64,000 bases of DNA. Origin: Cohnella sp. SGD-V74 (GTDB lineage Bacteria; Bacillota; Bacilli; Paenibacillales; Paenibacillaceae). The stretch lies in NCBI RefSeq assembly GCF_003001675.1, contig NZ_PVYW01000002.1, forward strand, positions 310,001-374,000, in the 5' to 3' direction. The notes beneath the pieces are model-generated. The model did no database searches and was not told the DNA's origin. It worked only from the letters and a program-made list of their open reading frames with translations. How positions within the stretch are numbered: the first letter of the stretch is position 1; the number at the start of each line of letters is the position of its first letter. This document shows, piece by piece, positions 491 to 58,097 of this stretch. The position numbers and the translations under genes are program-made.

Positions 491-1465
491 TTACAGCTCC
501 TCCTTCGAACCGAACAGCCGGTAGGCGAATCTCATCGCGAAGTAGCTGACGAGAAGCAGCATGACCGAGATCGCCGACGCGTAGCCCAGCTCGAAGCGGA
601 TAAACGCGTAGTCGTCGATATGGTTGATAACCAGATGCCCCGCGTATTGCGGCGTCACGGCCACCCCCGTCAGTTGGGTCGAGATGCTCCCCGCTTTCAG
701 CGTGCCTACGATCGTCATGACCGCGCTGAACAGCATCTGCGGCTTCATGGACGGGAGCGTAATGTAGAACACTTCCTGCAGCCGGTTGGAAATGCCGTCG
801 ATCCGGCCGGCTTCGTACAGCTCGCGGTTAACGGTCTGCAGCCCGGCAAGCATCGCCAGGAAGCCGACGCTGAAGCTCATCCACAGCGATACGATGATCA
901 TGACCTTCATCAGGTACTCCGGCTTCTGCAGCCAGATGATCGGGTTTTCAATGAAGCCGAAGCTGAGCAGAAACTGGTTCAAGTAACCGGTGCGGTCGCC
1001 GCTGAAGAGCGCGATCCAGACGACGGACAGGGCGACCGCCCCGGCCATCGACGGCGCGTAGAACGCGAGCGTGTAATAGTCGCGGATCTTGAGCGGCAGC
1101 TGCTGGATCAGCCATGCGAACAGAAAACTCAGCAAGTATCCGCCCGGACCGACGATCAAGGCGAACAGGAACGTGTTCGGCAGCGCTTTGGTCAAGAAAA
1201 TAACGTCCTGAGTGAACAGCGTGATGTAGTTGCTAAAGCCGATGAAACGAAGCGAGCCGAAGCCGTCGTACGACGTGAAGCCGAGCAGAGCGGCCATGCA
1301 GACGGGAATGACGATGAAAATAAGGAAACAAATGAGGAACGGCGCCAGGAAAACATAGACGAACGCGTCCCGCTTGATCTCGGCGAAAAACTGCCGAAGC
1401 TTGGCGCCCACGGAAGGCGGCCTCCTAAGCTTCGTTATTCCGGGAGTCAGCTCCGTATTGTTCAT
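491..1465 (-). CDS. Carbohydrate ABC transporter permease, MalF/UgpA type
   Basis: 324 residues with about six hydrophobic segments and the EAA loop (residues around EAGRIDGIS), which docks on the ATPase. It is a CUT1-family sugar permease in the cytoplasmic membrane. I chose the ATG at 1465: a GGGAGG site lies 7 bases upstream, and the ATG overlaps the binding-protein stop as ATGA, which suggests translational coupling. An in-frame ATG at 1480 would put the start inside that ribosome site. The next permease starts 4 bases after its stop. The sugar is unknown. Confidence 0.92.
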   Translation of the reverse strand: MNNTELTPGITKLRRPPSVGAKLRQFFAEIKRDAFVYVFLAPFLICFLIFIVIPVCMAALLGFTSYDGFGSLRFIGFSNYITLFTQDVIFLTKALPNTFLFALIVGPGGYLLSFLFAWLIQQLPLKIRDYYTLAFYAPSMAGAVALSVVWIALFSGDRTGYLNQFLLSFGFIENPIIWLQKPEYLMKVMIIVSLWMSFSVGFLAMLAGLQTVNRELYEAGRIDGISNRLQEVFYITLPSMKPQMLFSAVMTIVGTLKAGSISTQLTGVAVTPQYAGHLVINHIDDYAFIRFELGYASAISVMLLLVSYFAMRFAYRLFGSKEEL

Positions 1466-49607: not shown

Positions 49608-50165
49608 TTAAGCCATCCTCGTTCGAGACTGCGGCAATAGCTGAATGACGATCGCGCCCAGCAGCTGCATGCCGACTTTGACGGCGATCTGTCCGGCGAT
49701 GGCGTAGCCGACCAAGCTCCACGGCAGGAATCCGGCTCCGAGCGGGGACAGGCCGACGATGACGAAGACGACGCTGTCGACCGCCCCTCCGACGATGCCG
49801 CTGTACAGCACCCGCAGCGACATCGGCAGCTTCAAGCGGGAGTAAATTTCGGTGTCCGCCGTTTCCGAGAACAGGAAGGTGAGGGCCGAAGCGCCCACGA
49901 TCCACAGCGTATCGTCCAGCAGGAACGAGGTGAGAGCGGAGATCGCCATCGCCGTCACGATGACGATGTACGTGTTGCGGCGTCCGATCGCGTTCTGCAC
50001 GAGATCGCGGAAAATAAACGTCGCCCCGATCAGAAACGACCCCGCGGGAATAATCAGATAACCCAGCCGAACGGGCGCATAAGCGGCGGTTACGACGTTG
50101 GCGGCGACAATGGCGAGCAGATACAGCGCGATCAGCGCTATTTTTACCCCGTAGCCTCTCTTCAT
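49608..50165 (-). CDS. VUT family putative queuosine precursor transporter
   Basis: 185 residues with about five or six membrane segments; [38 protein letters not shown] and [14 protein letters not shown] match the short VUT/YhhQ-like group. The ATG overlaps the queF stop (ATGA), so it is translated together with a preQ0-reducing enzyme. It probably imports a queuosine precursor, as does its 226-residue paralogue at 41443. Confidence 0.88.
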
Positions 50166-50653
50166 CGGTTATCCACCTTCTCCGGGTATAGGTCGTGGTT
50201 CAACAGTCGATGCTCGGCCATCCGCTCGTACTTGGCGCCCGGCTGCCCCCAGTTGCAATAAGGATCGATCGAAATGCCTCCGCGCGGCGTAAACTTGCCC
50301 CACACTTCGATATAACGCGGATTCATCAAGGCGATCAGATCGTTCATGATGATGTTCATGCAATCCTCGTGAAAATCGCCATGATTCCGAAAACTGAACA
50401 AATACAGCTTGAGCGACTTGCTCTCCACCATTTTCCGGTCGGGAATGTACGAGATGTACAGCGTCGCGAAATCGGGCTGACCCGTGATCGGGCACAGGCT
50501 GGTAAATTCAGGGCAGTTAAACTTGACGAAATAGTCCCTGCCCGGGTGCTTGTTATCGAACGACTCCAGAATGCCCGGATCGTACTCGAACGCATACTTG
50601 GTCCCCTGATTGCCGAGCAGCGTGAGGTCTTGCATTTCTTCCGGCTTGCGCAT
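50162..50653 (-). CDS. queF: NADPH-dependent 7-cyano-7-deazaguanine reductase QueF
   Basis: 163 residues, the length of the short (YkvM-type) QueF. Catalytic Cys54 and Asp61 lie in [14 protein letters not shown], and [20 protein letters not shown] is the QueF signature with the His and Glu used in substrate binding. It reduces preQ0 to preQ1 in queuosine synthesis. A GGAAGGGG site precedes the ATG. The rest of the que pathway is not in the window. Expression is probably governed by the leader that begins at 51130. Confidence 0.97.
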
Positions 50654-51015: not shown

Positions 51016-51040
51016 TGGGCCGGCAAACTGGCGTTCGTTT

Positions 51041-51079
51041 TCCTTAGTTTTTTATAGAGGGAGTTCGCGAACCTCTCCC
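51041..51079 (-). ncRNA. preQ1-I riboswitch in the queF leader
   Basis: On the minus strand: GGGAGAGGTTC, loop GCGAAC, TCCCTC, then TATAAAAAACTAAGGA. The GGTTC core, CCCTC closing strand and A-rich tail match the Bacillus preQ1-I aptamer almost base for base. It is about 390 bases upstream of queF, unusually far. Confidence 0.92.
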
Positions 51080-51136
51080 GGCCCGCCGTTACGGGGCGTT
51101 CCGGATTTTCTTCTTCGGTTATGAAGTTACCTACGT

Positions 51137-53580: not shown

Positions 53581-53609
53581 TTGACATAAACATAACCTTG
53601 AGTTACAGT
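53581..53609 (+). promoter_or_regulatory. Promoter of the c-di-AMP riboswitch transcript
   Basis: Perfect TTGACA (53581-53586), 17 bases, TACAGT (53604-53609), about 15 bases before the aptamer. Confidence 0.75.
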
Positions 53610-53621
53610 TATAACACGCTT

Positions 53622-53742
53622 AGTTTTCGGCGCTCGTCGTCGAAAAGCGGGGGAACCACTTTTGGGGCGAATCGTTCGCATATCGAACGTAGGGAGACCA
53701 TCTTCCCGAGTCCGTCAGCTAACCTCGTCTGCGGAAGATGGG
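53622..53742 (+). ncRNA. c-di-AMP riboswitch (ydaO/yuaA class)
   Basis: Conserved class elements appear in order: AGCGGGGGAACCA (53646-53658), TTTGGGGCGAAT, GTAGGGA, CTTCCCGAGTCCGTCAGCTAACC (from about 53702) and GCGGAAGAT. These are the hallmark blocks of the ydaO/yuaA RNA, which turns expression off when c-di-AMP binds. A terminator follows at 53778, then the HAD gene. In Bacillus relatives the class controls potassium transport, osmolyte and wall-remodelling genes. Confidence 0.93.
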
Positions 53743-53777
53743 TCTATATTTTGCTTCTTCAGTTTCTTTCGGAAGCC

Positions 53778-53801
53778 GGGCCCTGAGAAAGGGTCCTTTT
53801 T
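53778..53801 (+). terminator. Riboswitch-controlled terminator
   Basis: GGCCCT and AGGGTCC arms form a 7-bp stem (one G-T pair) around a 5-base loop, then five T. It lies between the c-di-AMP aptamer and the HAD gene. Confidence 0.8.
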
Positions 53802-53873
53802 GCCGTTTTCTCTTTCCGGATGGATCATCCGGAACATTCTATCGGGCGCGGAAAGCGCGAAAGGAGACTGTTC

Positions 53874-54536
53874 ATGATCAAAGCCATTATTTTCGACTTC
53901 GACGGAACAATCATCGATACGGAGACCGCCTGGTACCGGGCGTTCCGCGAAGCGTACCGCTCCCACGGCGTCGAGCTGACGCTGGAGCAATATTCGCAAT
54001 GCATCGGCACGAGCTTGCACACCTTTAACCCCTACGAATATCTCATGACCGAGCTTGGCCTGCCGATCGACAAGGAGGCTTTCCGCCGGTCCGTTCACGA
54101 CAAGCACGCCGAACTGATGGAGCAGGAAACGGTGCGTCCCGGAGTTCTCGGCTACCTTGAGTCTGCCACAACGCTCGGGCTTAAGATCGGCCTTGCTTCC
54201 AGTTCCTCCGAGCATTGGGTTCGCACGCATCTGGATCGGCTGAAGCTGACCGACTATTTCGAGTGCATCCGCACTTCCGACCACGTCAGCAAAGTGAAGC
54301 CCGATCCCGAGCTGTATTTGCAAGCAATGAGCGCCCTCGGCGTTCGCGGCGAAGAGACGATCTCGGTGGAAGATTCCCCCAACGGAGCCAAAGCTGCCAT
54401 TGCCGCCGGAACGGTGTGCGTCATCGTTCCGAACGTGCTGACCGAAACGCTGAGCTTCCCGAAATCCCCTTACCGGGCAAGCTCTCTCGCCGAGCTGGAC
54501 TTCCGCCATCTGGCCGGTCGTTCGGAAGCGTCTTGA
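53874..54536 (+). CDS. HAD family phosphatase, beta-phosphoglucomutase-like
   Basis: 220 residues. Motif I DFDGTIIDTE (nucleophile Asp8, acid Asp10), motif II ASSSS, Lys in motif III (VKPDPELY) and motif IV EDSPNG, with an inserted helical cap (about 15-85) as in subfamily I phosphatases. Such enzymes dephosphorylate sugar phosphates or isomerise phosphoglucose. AAGGAGA precedes the ATG. It is the first gene after a c-di-AMP riboswitch and is followed by mannitol-1-phosphate dehydrogenase, so mannitol-1-phosphate is an attractive but unproven substrate. Confidence 0.9.
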   Translation: MIKAIIFDFDGTIIDTETAWYRAFREAYRSHGVELTLEQYSQCIGTSLHTFNPYEYLMTELGLPIDKEAFRRSVHDKHAELMEQETVRPGVLGYLESATTLGLKIGLASSSSEHWVRTHLDRLKLTDYFECIRTSDHVSKVKPDPELYLQAMSALGVRGEETISVEDSPNGAKAAIAAGTVCVIVPNVLTETLSFPKSPYRASSLAELDFRHLAGRSEAS

Positions 54537-54644
54537 GATGGACGACGCCAGTTGGGGTGGGATGTGAGAGGATTCCAGCCTCCCCCCCAGCTCCCTACCC
54601 TAAGTCGAGGCTTGATACCGCACGGGGGTGAGGCTCACTGCTTC

Positions 54645-54668
54645 GAGGCGCTTTTTTGGCCCTCGTGG
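54645..54668. repeat. Isolated copy of the 53-bp array core
   Basis: GAGGCGCTTTTTTGGCCCTC followed by GTGG matches the array core at 9659-10043 (GGCACTTTTTTGGCCCTCGTG), 44 kb away. It lies in the HAD-mtlD intergenic region. Confidence 0.65.
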
Positions 54669-54746
54669 CACTGCGCGGAGTTGAGGTTCGCTATCCAGGC
54701 ATACACCTCACACGAAGCCGCGCCGTCCCCGCCCATCTCCACCCAA

Positions 54747-54775
54747 AATTTTCTGATTAATCAGAAAATTATAAT
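54747..54775 (+). promoter_or_regulatory. 24-bp perfect palindrome with -10 box upstream of mtlD
   Basis: AATTTTCTGATT and its exact complement adjoin at 54747-54770. A perfect TATAAT overlaps the last base (54770-54775). The palindrome covers the -35 and spacer, as a repressor site would. The rest of 54537-54873 has no gene. Confidence 0.6.
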
Positions 54776-54873
54776 CGGTAGCTGCCTGACGGAACCCAAG
54801 CAAGCCTTTGCTAACGAACGATCGAGCACACACGGAAGAGCAACCTTCATCACGCGAAGAGGAGGAACCGATT

Positions 54874-56049
54874 ATGAAAGCTGTTCAGTTCGGAGCGGGA
54901 AATATCGGAAGAGGCTTTATCGGGTTGATGCTGTCCCGTTCGGGCTATGAAGTGTGCTTCGCCGCCCGCAACGCCGGCCAGGTCAAAGCCTTGCAGCTAA
55001 AGAAGCAGTACACCGTCACCTACGCCGGAGAGCCGCAGCGCAGCACCCTTGTCAGCAACGTGACTGCCGTCAGCCTCAAAGACCGGGATGCCGTCGTCAG
55101 ACGGGTCGCGGAAGCGGACGTGATTACGACGGCGGTCGGGGCGTCCGCGCTTCCCGAGATCGCGGAGCCGATTGCCCGGGGAATCGAAGCGCGCTTGGCC
55201 GAGCGGCCCCGCCCTTTGCTTGTGATCGCATGCGAGAACGCGATGAACGGAAGCGCCTTGCTGCGCAAATGGATCATGCGTCATCTGGCGCCGGAATGGA
55301 AGCCGCTCGCGGACCGCATGCTCGTCTGCCCGAACGCGGCCGTAGACCGCATCGTCCCTCCGCAGCAGCACGCCGACCCGCTCGCCGTCAAAGTCGAGCC
55401 CTACTGCGAATGGATCATCGAACGCGTCCCTTCGCTCGATCTCTTCCCCGTCATCGAAGGCGCCCAATACGTGGACTCGCTCGAGCCGTACGTCGAGAGA
55501 AAGCTGTTTACCGTCAATACGGGGCATTCCGTCGCCGCTTATTACGGATACCGGCAAGGCTACCGGACGATCCAGGAATCGATGCGCGACCCGGAGCTGC
55601 GGCGAAGCGTCGAGCGGACGCTGGAGGAGACATCCCGCCTGCTCGTCTCCAAGCACGGCTTCAGTCAGGCCGAACACAGCCAATACGTAAGCGGCACGCT
55701 GCGCAGATTCGAGAACGCCGCCATCGTCGACAAGATCGCCCGCGTCGGACGCTCTCCGCTCCGCAAGCTTTCCAGCAACGAAAGGCTGGTGCGTCCGGCG
55801 CTGCAAGCCTTCGACAACGGCATTCCGGTTCCGCATCTGGCGTCCGCCATGGCCTCTGCTCTGCTGTACGACGATGACGGGGATCTGGAGGCGGTCATTC
55901 TGCAAACTTCCATTCGCCAGAGAGGCGTCGGACACGTCATCCGCAAGCATATGGGAATCCCCGAAGATCACGCCCTCCACCAGGAAATCCTGCTCCGCTA
56001 CCATCGCTTCAAAGCGGCATCCCCGGCCCGCTCCGCCCGTACGCCGTAA
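54874..56049 (+). CDS. mtlD: Mannitol-1-phosphate 5-dehydrogenase
   Basis: 391 residues. A Rossmann start (AVQFGAGNIGRGFIGLML) is followed by the polyol dehydrogenase domain with KLFTVNTGHSVAAYYGY and the catalytic Lys region. It interconverts fructose-6-phosphate and mannitol-1-phosphate with NAD(H). The ATG at 54874 follows GAGGAGG. No mannitol PTS gene is adjacent; instead a c-di-AMP-controlled HAD phosphatase gene precedes it, which points to mannitol synthesis rather than uptake. It may also be driven by its own promoter at the 54747 palindrome. Confidence 0.95.
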   Translation: MKAVQFGAGNIGRGFIGLMLSRSGYEVCFAARNAGQVKALQLKKQYTVTYAGEPQRSTLVSNVTAVSLKDRDAVVRRVAEADVITTAVGASALPEIAEPIARGIEARLAERPRPLLVIACENAMNGSALLRKWIMRHLAPEWKPLADRMLVCPNAAVDRIVPPQQHADPLAVKVEPYCEWIIERVPSLDLFPVIEGAQYVDSLEPYVERKLFTVNTGHSVAAYYGYRQGYRTIQESMRDPELRRSVERTLEETSRLLVSKHGFSQAEHSQYVSGTLRRFENAAIVDKIARVGRSPLRKLSSNERLVRPALQAFDNGIPVPHLASAMASALLYDDDGDLEAVILQTSIRQRGVGHVIRKHMGIPEDHALHQEILLRYHRFKAASPARSARTP

Positions 56050-56166: not shown

Positions 56167-56541
56167 ATGCCCGAATCCCCACCCATTTCGGACGCGGAAT
56201 GGGATATTATGCGAATCGTCTGGCAGGCCTCGCCGTTGACGGCCGCCGACATCATTTCCCGCCTCAGCGGGACGAAATCGTGGAAGCCGAAGACGGTGAA
56301 GACACTCATCGGCAGACTTGTTCAGAAGGGAGCTCTCGGCTTCAGCAAGGACGGGCGCGAGTACGCCTACTTCCCGCTCGTCAATGAAGAGGAATGCGTT
56401 CGCGAAGCAAGCCGATCGTTCCTCGACCGAATTTACGGAGGCGCTCTTAAACCGATGATGGTGCACTTCCTGGAATCCGGCAAGCTCTCTCCCGACGATA
56501 TCAAGGAGTTGAAAGACCTGCTCCGGGAAAAGGAGAAATGA
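56167..56541 (+). CDS. BlaI/MecI/CopY family repressor
   Basis: 124 residues. A winged helix (about 8-75, ISDAEWDIMRIVWQASPLTAADIISRL and TVKTLIGRLVQKGAL) is followed by a short dimerisation helix pair. The family is inactivated when its partner membrane protease senses a signal. GGAGG precedes the ATG by 7 bases. Two operators in its own promoter indicate autorepression. The partner gene follows immediately. Confidence 0.95.
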   Translation: MPESPPISDAEWDIMRIVWQASPLTAADIISRLSGTKSWKPKTVKTLIGRLVQKGALGFSKDGREYAYFPLVNEEECVREASRSFLDRIYGGALKPMMVHFLESGKLSPDDIKELKDLLREKEK

Positions 56542-56543
56542 CG

Positions 56544-58097
56544 ATGGAGCTTGCGATCCGAATGTTCGGGCAAGCGCTCGTCGGCTCGTTGGAAGCCGCC
56601 GTCCTCGTACTGTTGATCGCAGGGACGCTGCGGCTGTGTCGCAAGACGTTGTCCCCGGGCTGGAAGTACGCCCTGTGGTTCCTGCTGCTCGCGAAGCTGC
56701 TGATCCCATTGCTGCCCGGGGACGCAGGAAACCAGCTGAGATGGCTGCCCGTGCCCGATACGCTGGAAACACGCTTGCCGGTCTTCGAAGCGATTCAATC
56801 TCGCGCCGCAAACCTCTCGGCCGCCGCAGCAGCGGAAGCTTCAGAGCGGACAAGCGGCGGAACCGTATTCGAAGGAGGAGAAGCAGCCTCACAGCCGGCG
56901 AGCCTCAGTCGGACTTCAGACAACCTTCTTCTGCAAATCGCGGCGTTCGTATGGTTATCCGGCATCGCTCTGGCACTGCTGTTCCCGCTCGCCGGACATC
57001 TCGCCATGTCCCGGGCGCTTCGGCGGGAAACCCGCTTGGTCGTCCCGCGCGAGCTGGAGGAGCAGTTCGCGCGAATCCGCGCGGACATCGGCATCCGCCC
57101 CGCCGTACAGCTTCGTCTGACCCGTCTTGTGTCCGGACCGGCACTGTTCGGCATTTTCTCCCCGGTCGTGCTGATTCCGCGGGATTTGGCCGGACGACTG
57201 GACGAAGCCGAATGGGAGTGCATCTTCAGACATGAGCTGACCCATTCCCGAAGGAAGGACATTTGGGTCAACTTGCTGGCGTATTCGCTCGTCTCCGCGC
57301 ATTGGTTCAATCCGCTGGCGTGGTACGGGCTGAGGAGAATGCGCATCGATCAGGAAAGCGCCTGCGACGCGAACGTGCTGAACGTCATTACCTCCAAGGA
57401 AGCGTATGCGTCCTGCATGATCAAGCTGCTGGAAATCGGAGCTGCGCGGAAAATCGCGTTATCGGGAGTCGGTTTCTTCGGAAGCAAAAAACTGATCGCG
57501 AGGAGAATCGTGATGATACGAGACTACAAACCCGGCCGCAAGAAAGCCGCTTATACCGGGGCCGTCATCTTCATTCTGGCCGGAGCTTTACTGCTGCCGT
57601 CCGCTCTTGCGGCGGACAAGAACGAGCCGCGGACGAATCCGCAGCCCGCCGCTCAAGCCGCCGAAACAAACAACGACAGCGCAAAGGAAATCCAATTGCG
57701 GCTCAAAATACCGAAAGACGCTAAAATCAGCTCGCGCTACGGCTACCGCATCCATCCGGTAACGTCCGAAAAATCGCTGCACGACGGCATCGACATCGCC
57801 GGCAAAGCCGGATCGGATATTTTCGCGGCCGGCGCAGGTAAAGTCGCGCTGTCCGAATACGACTCCGCCAAAGGCTTGACGGTGAAGATCGAGCACGGCG
57901 AAGCGTGGGTCACCGAATACCGACACCTGGACAAGCTCGCGGTCGAAGCCGGGGACGAAGTGAAGTCCGGCGATGTGATCGGACAGATGGGCAGCACCGG
58001 GGAATCCACCGGTCCCCATCTGCATTACTCGACGCTTAAAGAAGGAGAATACGTCGATCCCTTGTCCGTAACCGTAATCGGCACCGAAGCGAAATGA
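56544..58097 (+). CDS. BlaR1-type M56 metallopeptidase fused to an M23 peptidase domain
   Basis: 517 residues. Membrane segments lie at about 10-55, 130-150 and 350-370. The M56 zinc protease has HELTH (His230, Glu231, His234) with the second-site Glu in DQESACDANV. After the last membrane segment an extracellular M23 domain (about 390-515) shows SRYGYRIHPV, LHDGID (His413, Asp417) and HLH (His492, His494), so its zinc ligands are intact. Classical BlaR1 carries a penicillin-binding sensor there. The signal could be peptidoglycan damage. I prefer the ATG at 56544, 8 bases after AGGAG; the ATG at 56538 overlaps the blaI stop. Confidence 0.92.
   Translation: MELAIRMFGQALVGSLEAAVLVLLIAGTLRLCRKTLSPGWKYALWFLLLAKLLIPLLPGDAGNQLRWLPVPDTLETRLPVFEAIQSRAANLSAAAAAEASERTSGGTVFEGGEAASQPASLSRTSDNLLLQIAAFVWLSGIALALLFPLAGHLAMSRALRRETRLVVPRELEEQFARIRADIGIRPAVQLRLTRLVSGPALFGIFSPVVLIPRDLAGRLDEAEWECIFRHELTHSRRKDIWVNLLAYSLVSAHWFNPLAWYGLRRMRIDQESACDANVLNVITSKEAYASCMIKLLEIGAARKIALSGVGFFGSKKLIARRIVMIRDYKPGRKKAAYTGAVIFILAGALLLPSALAADKNEPRTNPQPAAQAAETNNDSAKEIQLRLKIPKDAKISSRYGYRIHPVTSEKSLHDGIDIAGKAGSDIFAAGAGKVALSEYDSAKGLTVKIEHGEAWVTEYRHLDKLAVEAGDEVKSGDVIGQMGSTGESTGPHLHYSTLKEGEYVDPLSVTVIGTEAK

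Follow-up and report, generated by a model that had tools for sequence, protein, structure and literature searches.

A c-di-AMP riboswitch ahead of a HAD phosphatase-mtlD gene pair in Cohnella sp. SGD-V74: a candidate switch for mannitol synthesis

The riboswitch leader and the two genes behind it

The stretch analysed here, 64,000 nucleotides of Cohnella sp. SGD-V74 (contig NZ_PVYW01000002.1, positions 310,001 to 374,000; hereafter the window, in whose own numbering its features are given), carries a cyclic di-AMP (c-di-AMP) riboswitch aptamer of the ydaO/yuaA class. Behind it stand two genes, one for a HAD phosphatase and mtlD for mannitol-1-phosphate 5-dehydrogenase. An Rfam scan of the window at the gathering threshold returned two matches, one of which was RF00379 at 53607-53749 (+), scoring 81 bits (gathering score 38; E-value 2.9e-17). 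The first-pass annotation, made from the letters alone, had read a ydaO-class aptamer at 53622-53742, and Rfam thus confirmed it. The conserved core of RF00379, consisting of GGGGGAACC, GAAUC, GUAGGG and CCGUCAGCUAACCUCG, was complete in the alignment of this aptamer. The HAD gene (53874-54536, +; Pfam HAD_2, 130.7 bits) encodes a protein of 220 amino acids, proposed to be a mannitol-1-phosphate phosphatase, and mtlD (54874-56049, +; NF002652, 417.5 bits against a cut-off of 356) encodes a protein of 391 amino acids with Ala31-Arg32 at the cofactor site. Both genes lie on the strand of the riboswitch, in the order first described.

A sigma-A-type promoter-like site, TTGACA-17-TACAGT (53581-53609, +), was found by scanning, and a TT(G/T)AC box with a TA...T box 17 bases downstream occupied identical alignment columns in the leaders of all nine Cohnella genomes that carry the arrangement, with TTTACA replacing TTGACA in G002. 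Between the aptamer and the HAD gene, the scan found an intrinsic-terminator-like hairpin, GGGCCC-TGAGAAA-GGGTCC followed by TTTTT (53778-53796, +), as the expression platform. Of 13 leaders searched by script, 12, one of them from a metagenome-assembled genome (MAG), had a hairpin followed by a T-rich tail; none was found in the leader of G288, and that of G292 was weak (-8.4 kcal/mol). The numbers of such sites in the leader stretch did not exceed those in shuffled sequence (promoters, 1 against 0.9 expected; terminators, 2 against 2.7 expected), so the promoter and the terminator, both of which the first-pass annotation had listed, are credited for their position and conservation and not for their number.

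Within the aptamer, CCAUCUUCC (53698-53706, +), the proposed pseudoknot strand as read from the sequence, is complementary to GGAAGAUGG at 53733-53741. CCATC was present in all nine Cohnella leaders, and its partner was GATGG in eight of them and GGTGG in G014. The overlapping GAUGGGUC (53737-53744, +) is the proposed switching strand, which could pair either with the aptamer through GAUGG or with the 5' arm of the terminator through GGGUC. TGGGTC stood directly 3' of the aptamer in 12 of 12 Paenibacillaceae leaders and was absent from the MAG leader; G(G/A)CCC of the terminator 5' arm, the partner of GGGUC, was found in 9 of 9 Cohnella leaders. Judged by eye from the alignment, the GAUGG-CCAUC and GGGUC-G(G/A)CCC pairings are mutually exclusive, and GAUGGGUC may act as a switch between them. 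The ydaO riboswitches are off-switches according to two reports (PMC5670726; PMC10117811), and the window leader would likewise be predicted to bind c-di-AMP and shut off expression.

Between the two genes lies a perfect 24-base AT-rich palindrome (54747-54770), read from the sequence, where the first-pass annotation had placed a second promoter; the promoter scan found none at 54747 and so gives that claim no support. The 18-base core of the palindrome occurred once in the genome with up to two mismatches allowed, and its reading as a repeated operator was rejected. A conserved motif was also sought in 92 HAD-mtlD gaps and rejected, the commonest 8-base words being Shine-Dalgarno-like or apparently confined to close relatives (GAATATTC in 19 gaps). 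Transcription in the window genome would continue from the HAD gene into mtlD.

Occurrence and origin of the arrangement

A HAD orthologue with at least 60% identity was found in 9 of 37 Cohnella genomes, the source genome included, and the next best match had 49%. In all nine, mtlD directly followed the HAD gene and a full-length RF00379 match (65.6-81 bits) stood directly upstream, so that the riboswitch-HAD-mtlD order, whose comparison in related genomes the first-pass annotation had suggested, was present at every one of the nine pairs in Cohnella. The proteins of the eight relatives were 52-63% identical to the window HAD and MtlD, and the aptamer, the TGGGTC strand and the hairpin were kept. 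At the mtlD loci of the genus linked to the phosphotransferase system (PTS), RF00379 was found in none of the 12 scanned, out of 19 known. A gene similar among four Cohnella genomes (L099, L100, L102 and L103) follows mtlD on the same strand and is not present in the window; its product in L100 resembled acyl-CoA dehydrogenases and flavin monooxygenases, under all cut-offs shown.

A profile of the nine HADs was searched against 394 genomes of the family, with seven candidates scored per genome, and gave 125 matches by our count at an E-value of 4.9e-93 or better, followed by a gap to 2.8e-85. The 110 loci examined comprised the 9 of the genus, 21 supplied by the profile search and 80 selected manually; 12 of the other 15 came from one genus already well covered. 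In 95 of the 110 loci, mtlD adjoined the HAD gene on the same strand. A riboswitch signature, which recovers 45 of the 46 loci that have an Rfam match, stood upstream of these 95 pairs on the same strand in 12, on the opposite strand in 11 and in neither orientation in 72. Outside Cohnella, Rfam confirmed the same-strand riboswitch in G288, G289 and G292, which belong to a second genus, as well as eight opposite-strand cases examined in extended loci; it found no riboswitch at the second HAD-mtlD pair of G289. Among 40 named loci scanned, RF00379 was found in 4, namely three Cohnella loci already in the genome set and L129, a MAG contig of 3,022 bases with the same riboswitch-HAD-mtlD order. 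Inspection by eye of several Paenibacillus loci lacking the riboswitch (L119, L120, L122, L123, L124, L138 and others) showed two shared elements upstream of the HAD gene, a TTGAC-like box and (G/T)TACGGTTTT, possibly the site of another regulator. A Bacillota MAG (L183) carries an RF00379-class riboswitch of 100.6 bits at 869-1034 (-), on the strand opposite to a partial HAD orthologue and about 2 kb upstream of it.

When HAD and MtlD sequences were combined in a tree of 51 rows, the 12 Paenibacillaceae riboswitch units formed one clade (support 100/99) apart from the units without a riboswitch, and the MAG unit L129 grouped outside it with another MAG, L142 (97/97). A single clade of all 13 riboswitch units was rejected by the approximately unbiased (AU) test (p 0.0137), for which the group of 13 was chosen after the tree had been seen and in which long branches lead to the window and L142. 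The group table of the AU analysis, taken without the 31 ungrouped rows, by itself needs one change only, and a tree of the HADs alone gave no resolution, with the riboswitch units scattered. Riboswitch control of HAD-mtlD thus probably arose twice, the second case being the one 3,022-base contig; a single ancient origin followed by several losses, or transfer, is an alternative compatible with these trees.

Cofactor site of MtlD and specificity of the phosphatase

In the 95 HAD-linked MtlDs examined in the family, residue 31 was A, G, T, S or V and never an acid, and residue 32 was always Arg, a pattern that the first-pass annotation had not predicted. Of 22 named loci given, some of which duplicate loci of the genome set, 18 had a match, and all 18 showed the same pattern. 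In MtlDs not linked to a HAD gene, residue 31 was D or E and residue 32 was V or I in 21 of 21, this set being taken from 24 mtlD matches with three weak ones excluded and including two identical copies in G012. Strand beta-2 ends at residue 31 in the AlphaFold model of the window MtlD (mean pLDDT 91.7). In Rossmann folds, a preference for NADP(H) is usually signalled by loss of the acid at the end of beta-2 and an Arg at the next position. Arg32 and the lack of an acid at residue 31 suggest NADPH use by the HAD-linked MtlDs. The HAD-linked and other MtlDs lay on two sides of a tree built by a quick method (SH-aLRT 99; 31 HAD-linked and 14 other rows, 12 of the latter PTS-linked).

In Staphylococcus aureus MtlD, PMC6623548 assigns NAD binding to residues that include Asp31, as judged by superposition on another enzyme, and catalytic or substrate roles to Asn119, Lys200, Asn205, His208, Arg280 and Lys288. 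By our reading of the alignment with that enzyme, the catalytic and substrate residues of the window MtlD are N122, K210, N215, H218, R290 and K298, which were kept in 95 of 95 HAD-linked MtlDs. The window enzyme thus shares its family and these residues with the PTS-linked mannitol-1-phosphate 5-dehydrogenases, and differs from them in its side of the tree, the loss of Asp31, the gain of Arg32, the HAD partner gene and the lack of an adjacent mtlA.

By sequence, the window HAD is a HAD-IA hydrolase, sharing the subfamily IA fold and motifs of HxpB (YniC, 1te2) and of the CbbY/beta-phosphoglucomutase-type HADs. Its top NCBIfam match was the hexitol phosphatase HxpB (NF008087; 117.8 bits, under the cut-off of 191), and it scored 96 bits against beta-phosphoglucomutase (TIGR01990), under the equivalog cut-off of 189.4. 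Naming the protein by sequence family was abandoned, as it fell under the cut-off of every equivalog among the 25 best of 32 families. In the structural model (mean pLDDT 90.9), the best Foldseek E-values were those of CbbY and of Acinetobacter MtlD, whose phosphatase domain ranked second at 23% identity. The query-normalized TM-score (TMq) was 0.81 to chain A of the mannitol-1-phosphate-bound MtlD 7ocu, 0.68 to CbbY and 0.84 to human HDHD1A. The predicted fold is thus compatible with mannitol-1-phosphate as the substrate, a fit that falls short of proof. The window HAD carries a tryptophan, W20 of DTETAWY, that is invariant in the nine Cohnella HADs, at a position where beta-phosphoglucomutase has a histidine.

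The bifunctional MtlD of Acinetobacter (7ocn, 7oct and 7ocu) likewise combines a HAD phosphatase with a mannitol-1-phosphate dehydrogenase; according to PMC6291793, it prefers NADPH and makes mannitol as a compatible solute, and the window MtlD has an NADPH-type site. The Acinetobacter activities are fused in one chain, whereas the window has two genes with a riboswitch in front. The first-pass annotation had called the pair the unfused version of this enzyme, which holds for the function and for the resemblance of the HAD to its phosphatase domain and fails for the dehydrogenase. Against the NF046057 model of the bifunctional enzyme, the two window proteins reached 77.8 and 80.5 bits, far from the cut-off of 800. 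The closest solved structures to the window dehydrogenase were 3h2z and 5jnm of the short MtlD family (37% identity to the nearest solved MtlD), and in the fold search it was 12-18% identical to the Acinetobacter enzyme. Since it belongs to the short family, it is an analogue of that enzyme, alike in function only.

Regulon, proposed pathway and alternatives

The source assembly (8.24 Mb, 59 contigs, 99.93% complete, 4.01% contamination) holds eight RF00379 sites. Behind the seven other than that of HAD-mtlD, examined in 3-kb loci, stand a Usp-TrkA pair, TrkH, two NlpC/P60 genes, a G5/3D-domain gene, a KamA-family gene and one gene without a Pfam match; in the Usp-TrkA locus, the start of a TrkH-like gene follows by our reading, without a Pfam match. 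The window riboswitch resembles its class in its aptamer, in its terminator-type platform and in the K+ transport and cell-wall genes behind its sister sites, and departs from the company of that class in preceding genes for a polyol-phosphate dehydrogenase and a phosphatase. The genome encodes three DAC (c-di-AMP cyclase) domains, so the cell can probably make c-di-AMP. The gene without a Pfam match, encoding 218 amino acids near 319198 of contig C5, is followed by a Gluconate_2-dh3 gene and an oxidoreductase-like gene.

The lack of a mannitol PTS gene, first reported for this neighbourhood, holds for the whole 8.24-Mb assembly, in which mtlA (TIGR00851) had no match at an E-value of 0.001. 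In the genus, mtlA exceeded the cut-off in 18 of 37 genomes, and all 19 such matches lay within about 5 kb of another mtlD; full clusters were read by us as mtlA-mtlR-mtlF-mtlD-ptsI-like in L107, L109, L112 and L114. No mtlA match over the cut-off was found in six of the nine riboswitch genomes (no match in G000, G002, G008, G014 and G025; a weaker paralogue in G035).

Near 288846 of contig C5, a c-di-AMP riboswitch precedes the KamA-family gene, and a riboswitch-led KamA-like gene stood back to back with HAD-mtlD in five (L309, L311, L312, L314 and L316) of the eight opposite-strand Paenibacillus-type loci, which were extended to 5.5 kb. The proteins of L309, L316 and the source locus were over the KamA-family cut-off and under those of lysine 2,3-aminomutase and every other equivalog shown. 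Some KamA-family products serve as osmolytes; an osmolyte role for these riboswitch-led genes is a guess. In the other three loci, the riboswitches opposite HAD-mtlD (L310, 1737-1881, +; L313, 3888-4032, -; L315, 3437-3576, -) have no KamA-like gene behind them and aim at the ends of genes that we read as Mrp-like or chloride-channel-like, with no obvious target.

Two other groups of genes in the window may be mentioned. A PreQ1 riboswitch (RF00522, 56.4 bits; 51038-51081, -) lies upstream of two genes that we read from their proteins as QueF-like (50162-50653, -) and queuosine-precursor-transporter-like (49608-50165, -). Downstream of mtlD, a gene for a BlaI-type repressor (56167-56541) is followed by one for a BlaR1-type M56 sensor with a C-terminal M23 peptidase domain by Pfam (56538-58097, +).

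Considering these results, we propose that a c-di-AMP off-riboswitch probably controls a two-enzyme unit, an NADPH-linked MtlD and a HAD phosphatase, that synthesizes mannitol as a compatible solute. Under ample turgor, c-di-AMP would be high and bound by the leader, the terminator at 53778-53796 would form and transcription would stop. Under water shortage, c-di-AMP would drop, GAUGGGUC would move from the aptamer to the 5' arm of the terminator, and transcription, the terminator being blocked, would read into the HAD gene and mtlD. MtlD, probably using NADPH, would then convert fructose-6-phosphate by reduction into mannitol-1-phosphate, from which HAD would strip the phosphate to give mannitol, a step that would make the route one-way. 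In several Gram-positive bacteria, according to PMC6108528, c-di-AMP rises at low osmolarity, and added solute stops its synthesis or speeds its degradation; the drop under water shortage is carried over to Cohnella by analogy with them. Synthesis is the likely direction of the pathway, because mtlA is lacking in the source genome, the cofactor site is altered and the catalytic and substrate residues are kept. The osmolyte-switch interpretation of the first-pass annotation is thus supported by the comparative evidence, and we infer the mechanism itself, including the flux direction, the HAD substrate, mannitol as the product, the response to the ligand and the use of NADPH.

Several observations weigh against this proposal. 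Ligand response, enzyme activities and expression are all predictions from sequence. In 83 of the 95 family pairs examined there is no same-strand riboswitch, so the gene pair is more widespread than the switch and those pairs must be controlled in some other way. Among the nine riboswitch genomes, G010, G023 and G036 also carry an mtlA cluster with its own mtlD. Antiterminator duplexes showed no clear gain over shuffled sequence (fractions 0.036-0.242 in the 12 leaders scored; 0.242 in the window), and since the single pairings are not clear by this measure, the antiterminator step is argued from conservation. The HAD sequence does not single out mannitol-1-phosphate, and among solved structures it matched CbbY (109.8 bits) better than the MtlD phosphatase domain (88.7 bits) and YniC/1te2 (86 bits). 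As the HAD-linked MtlDs lie on one side of the tree, their cofactor change may be a single event. The S. aureus MtlD with Asp31, a PTS-type enzyme, is described in PMC6623548 as an NADH-dependent enzyme that also makes mannitol, together with a separate phosphatase; the site at residue 31 therefore points to the cofactor and not by itself to the direction. Finally, HAD and mtlD are separated in the window by 338 bases, a gap that holds a weak terminator-like hairpin (-9.2 kcal/mol); in the eight relatives the gap measures 35-177 bases.

This long gap, its hairpin and the palindrome unique in the genome would suit control of the HAD gene alone, as a sugar-phosphate phosphatase, with mtlD expressed from its own promoter near the palindrome and serving something else. 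We consider that arrangement unlikely, given that no promoter was found there, that the gaps are short in all eight relatives and free of a terminator-like hairpin in seven of them (a weak one occurs in G023 only), and that the two genes stand together in so many of the family loci. A rather doubtful variant keeps the same switch and direction and changes the product: MtlD would reduce another keto-sugar phosphate and HAD would free, for example, arabitol, ribitol or sorbitol. The specificity of the HAD is unreadable from its sequence under the equivalog cut-offs shown, and the modest identity of MtlD to its closest solved relative leaves room for such a product, whereas the NF002652 match over its cut-off, the six residues kept throughout and the alignment of the HAD model with the mannitol-1-phosphate-bound 7ocu favour mannitol.

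The classical role of MtlD is catabolic, and the best NCBIfam match of the HAD, though under its cut-off, is a hexitol phosphatase; a catabolic or detoxification pair, in which MtlD oxidizes mannitol-1-phosphate and HAD relieves sugar-phosphate stress, could therefore be imagined. It is improbable, considering the distribution of mtlA, which is missing from the source genome and accompanied by another mtlD wherever it exceeds the cut-off, as well as the NADPH-type site; moreover, a phosphatase next to the dehydrogenase would presumably reverse PTS phosphorylation. That the riboswitch is there by shared ancestry, with no functional tie to the two genes, is scarcely credible: 12 of the 13 riboswitch units form one clade, so that their conservation is mostly one inheritance, yet the leader elements persist among relatives whose proteins have diverged to 52-63% identity, and the MAG unit lies outside the clade.

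Mannitol as a bacterial compatible solute and its synthesis by a dehydrogenase and a phosphatase are already published (PMC6623548; PMC6291793). A literature search, outside which most subscription papers lay, found none joining the ydaO/yuaA or cyclic di-AMP riboswitch with mannitol or mtlD and, among the titles listed, none on the riboswitch-HAD-mtlD arrangement. What would be new is the linked HAD-mtlD pair with an NADPH-type MtlD across a large group of soil bacteria, together with its control. For annotators, the pattern at residues 31 and 32 offers a testable split of MtlD proteins into two kinds. More broadly, and with the balance about even, Paenibacillaceae may possess a dedicated NADPH-driven two-gene mannitol module, made of the HAD and an MtlD lineage in which Asp31 became a small residue and Val32 became Arg, analogous to the Acinetobacter system with a different dehydrogenase, brought under a c-di-AMP riboswitch probably twice and forming, with the KamA-family aminomutase genes, a synthetic arm of c-di-AMP signalling. 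If the proposal is true, c-di-AMP would gate the making of organic osmolytes besides ion and solute transport, the same second messenger controlling osmolyte synthesis through direct RNA sensing by a riboswitch before the synthesis genes, and a soil bacterium may thereby make protective mannitol when short of water.

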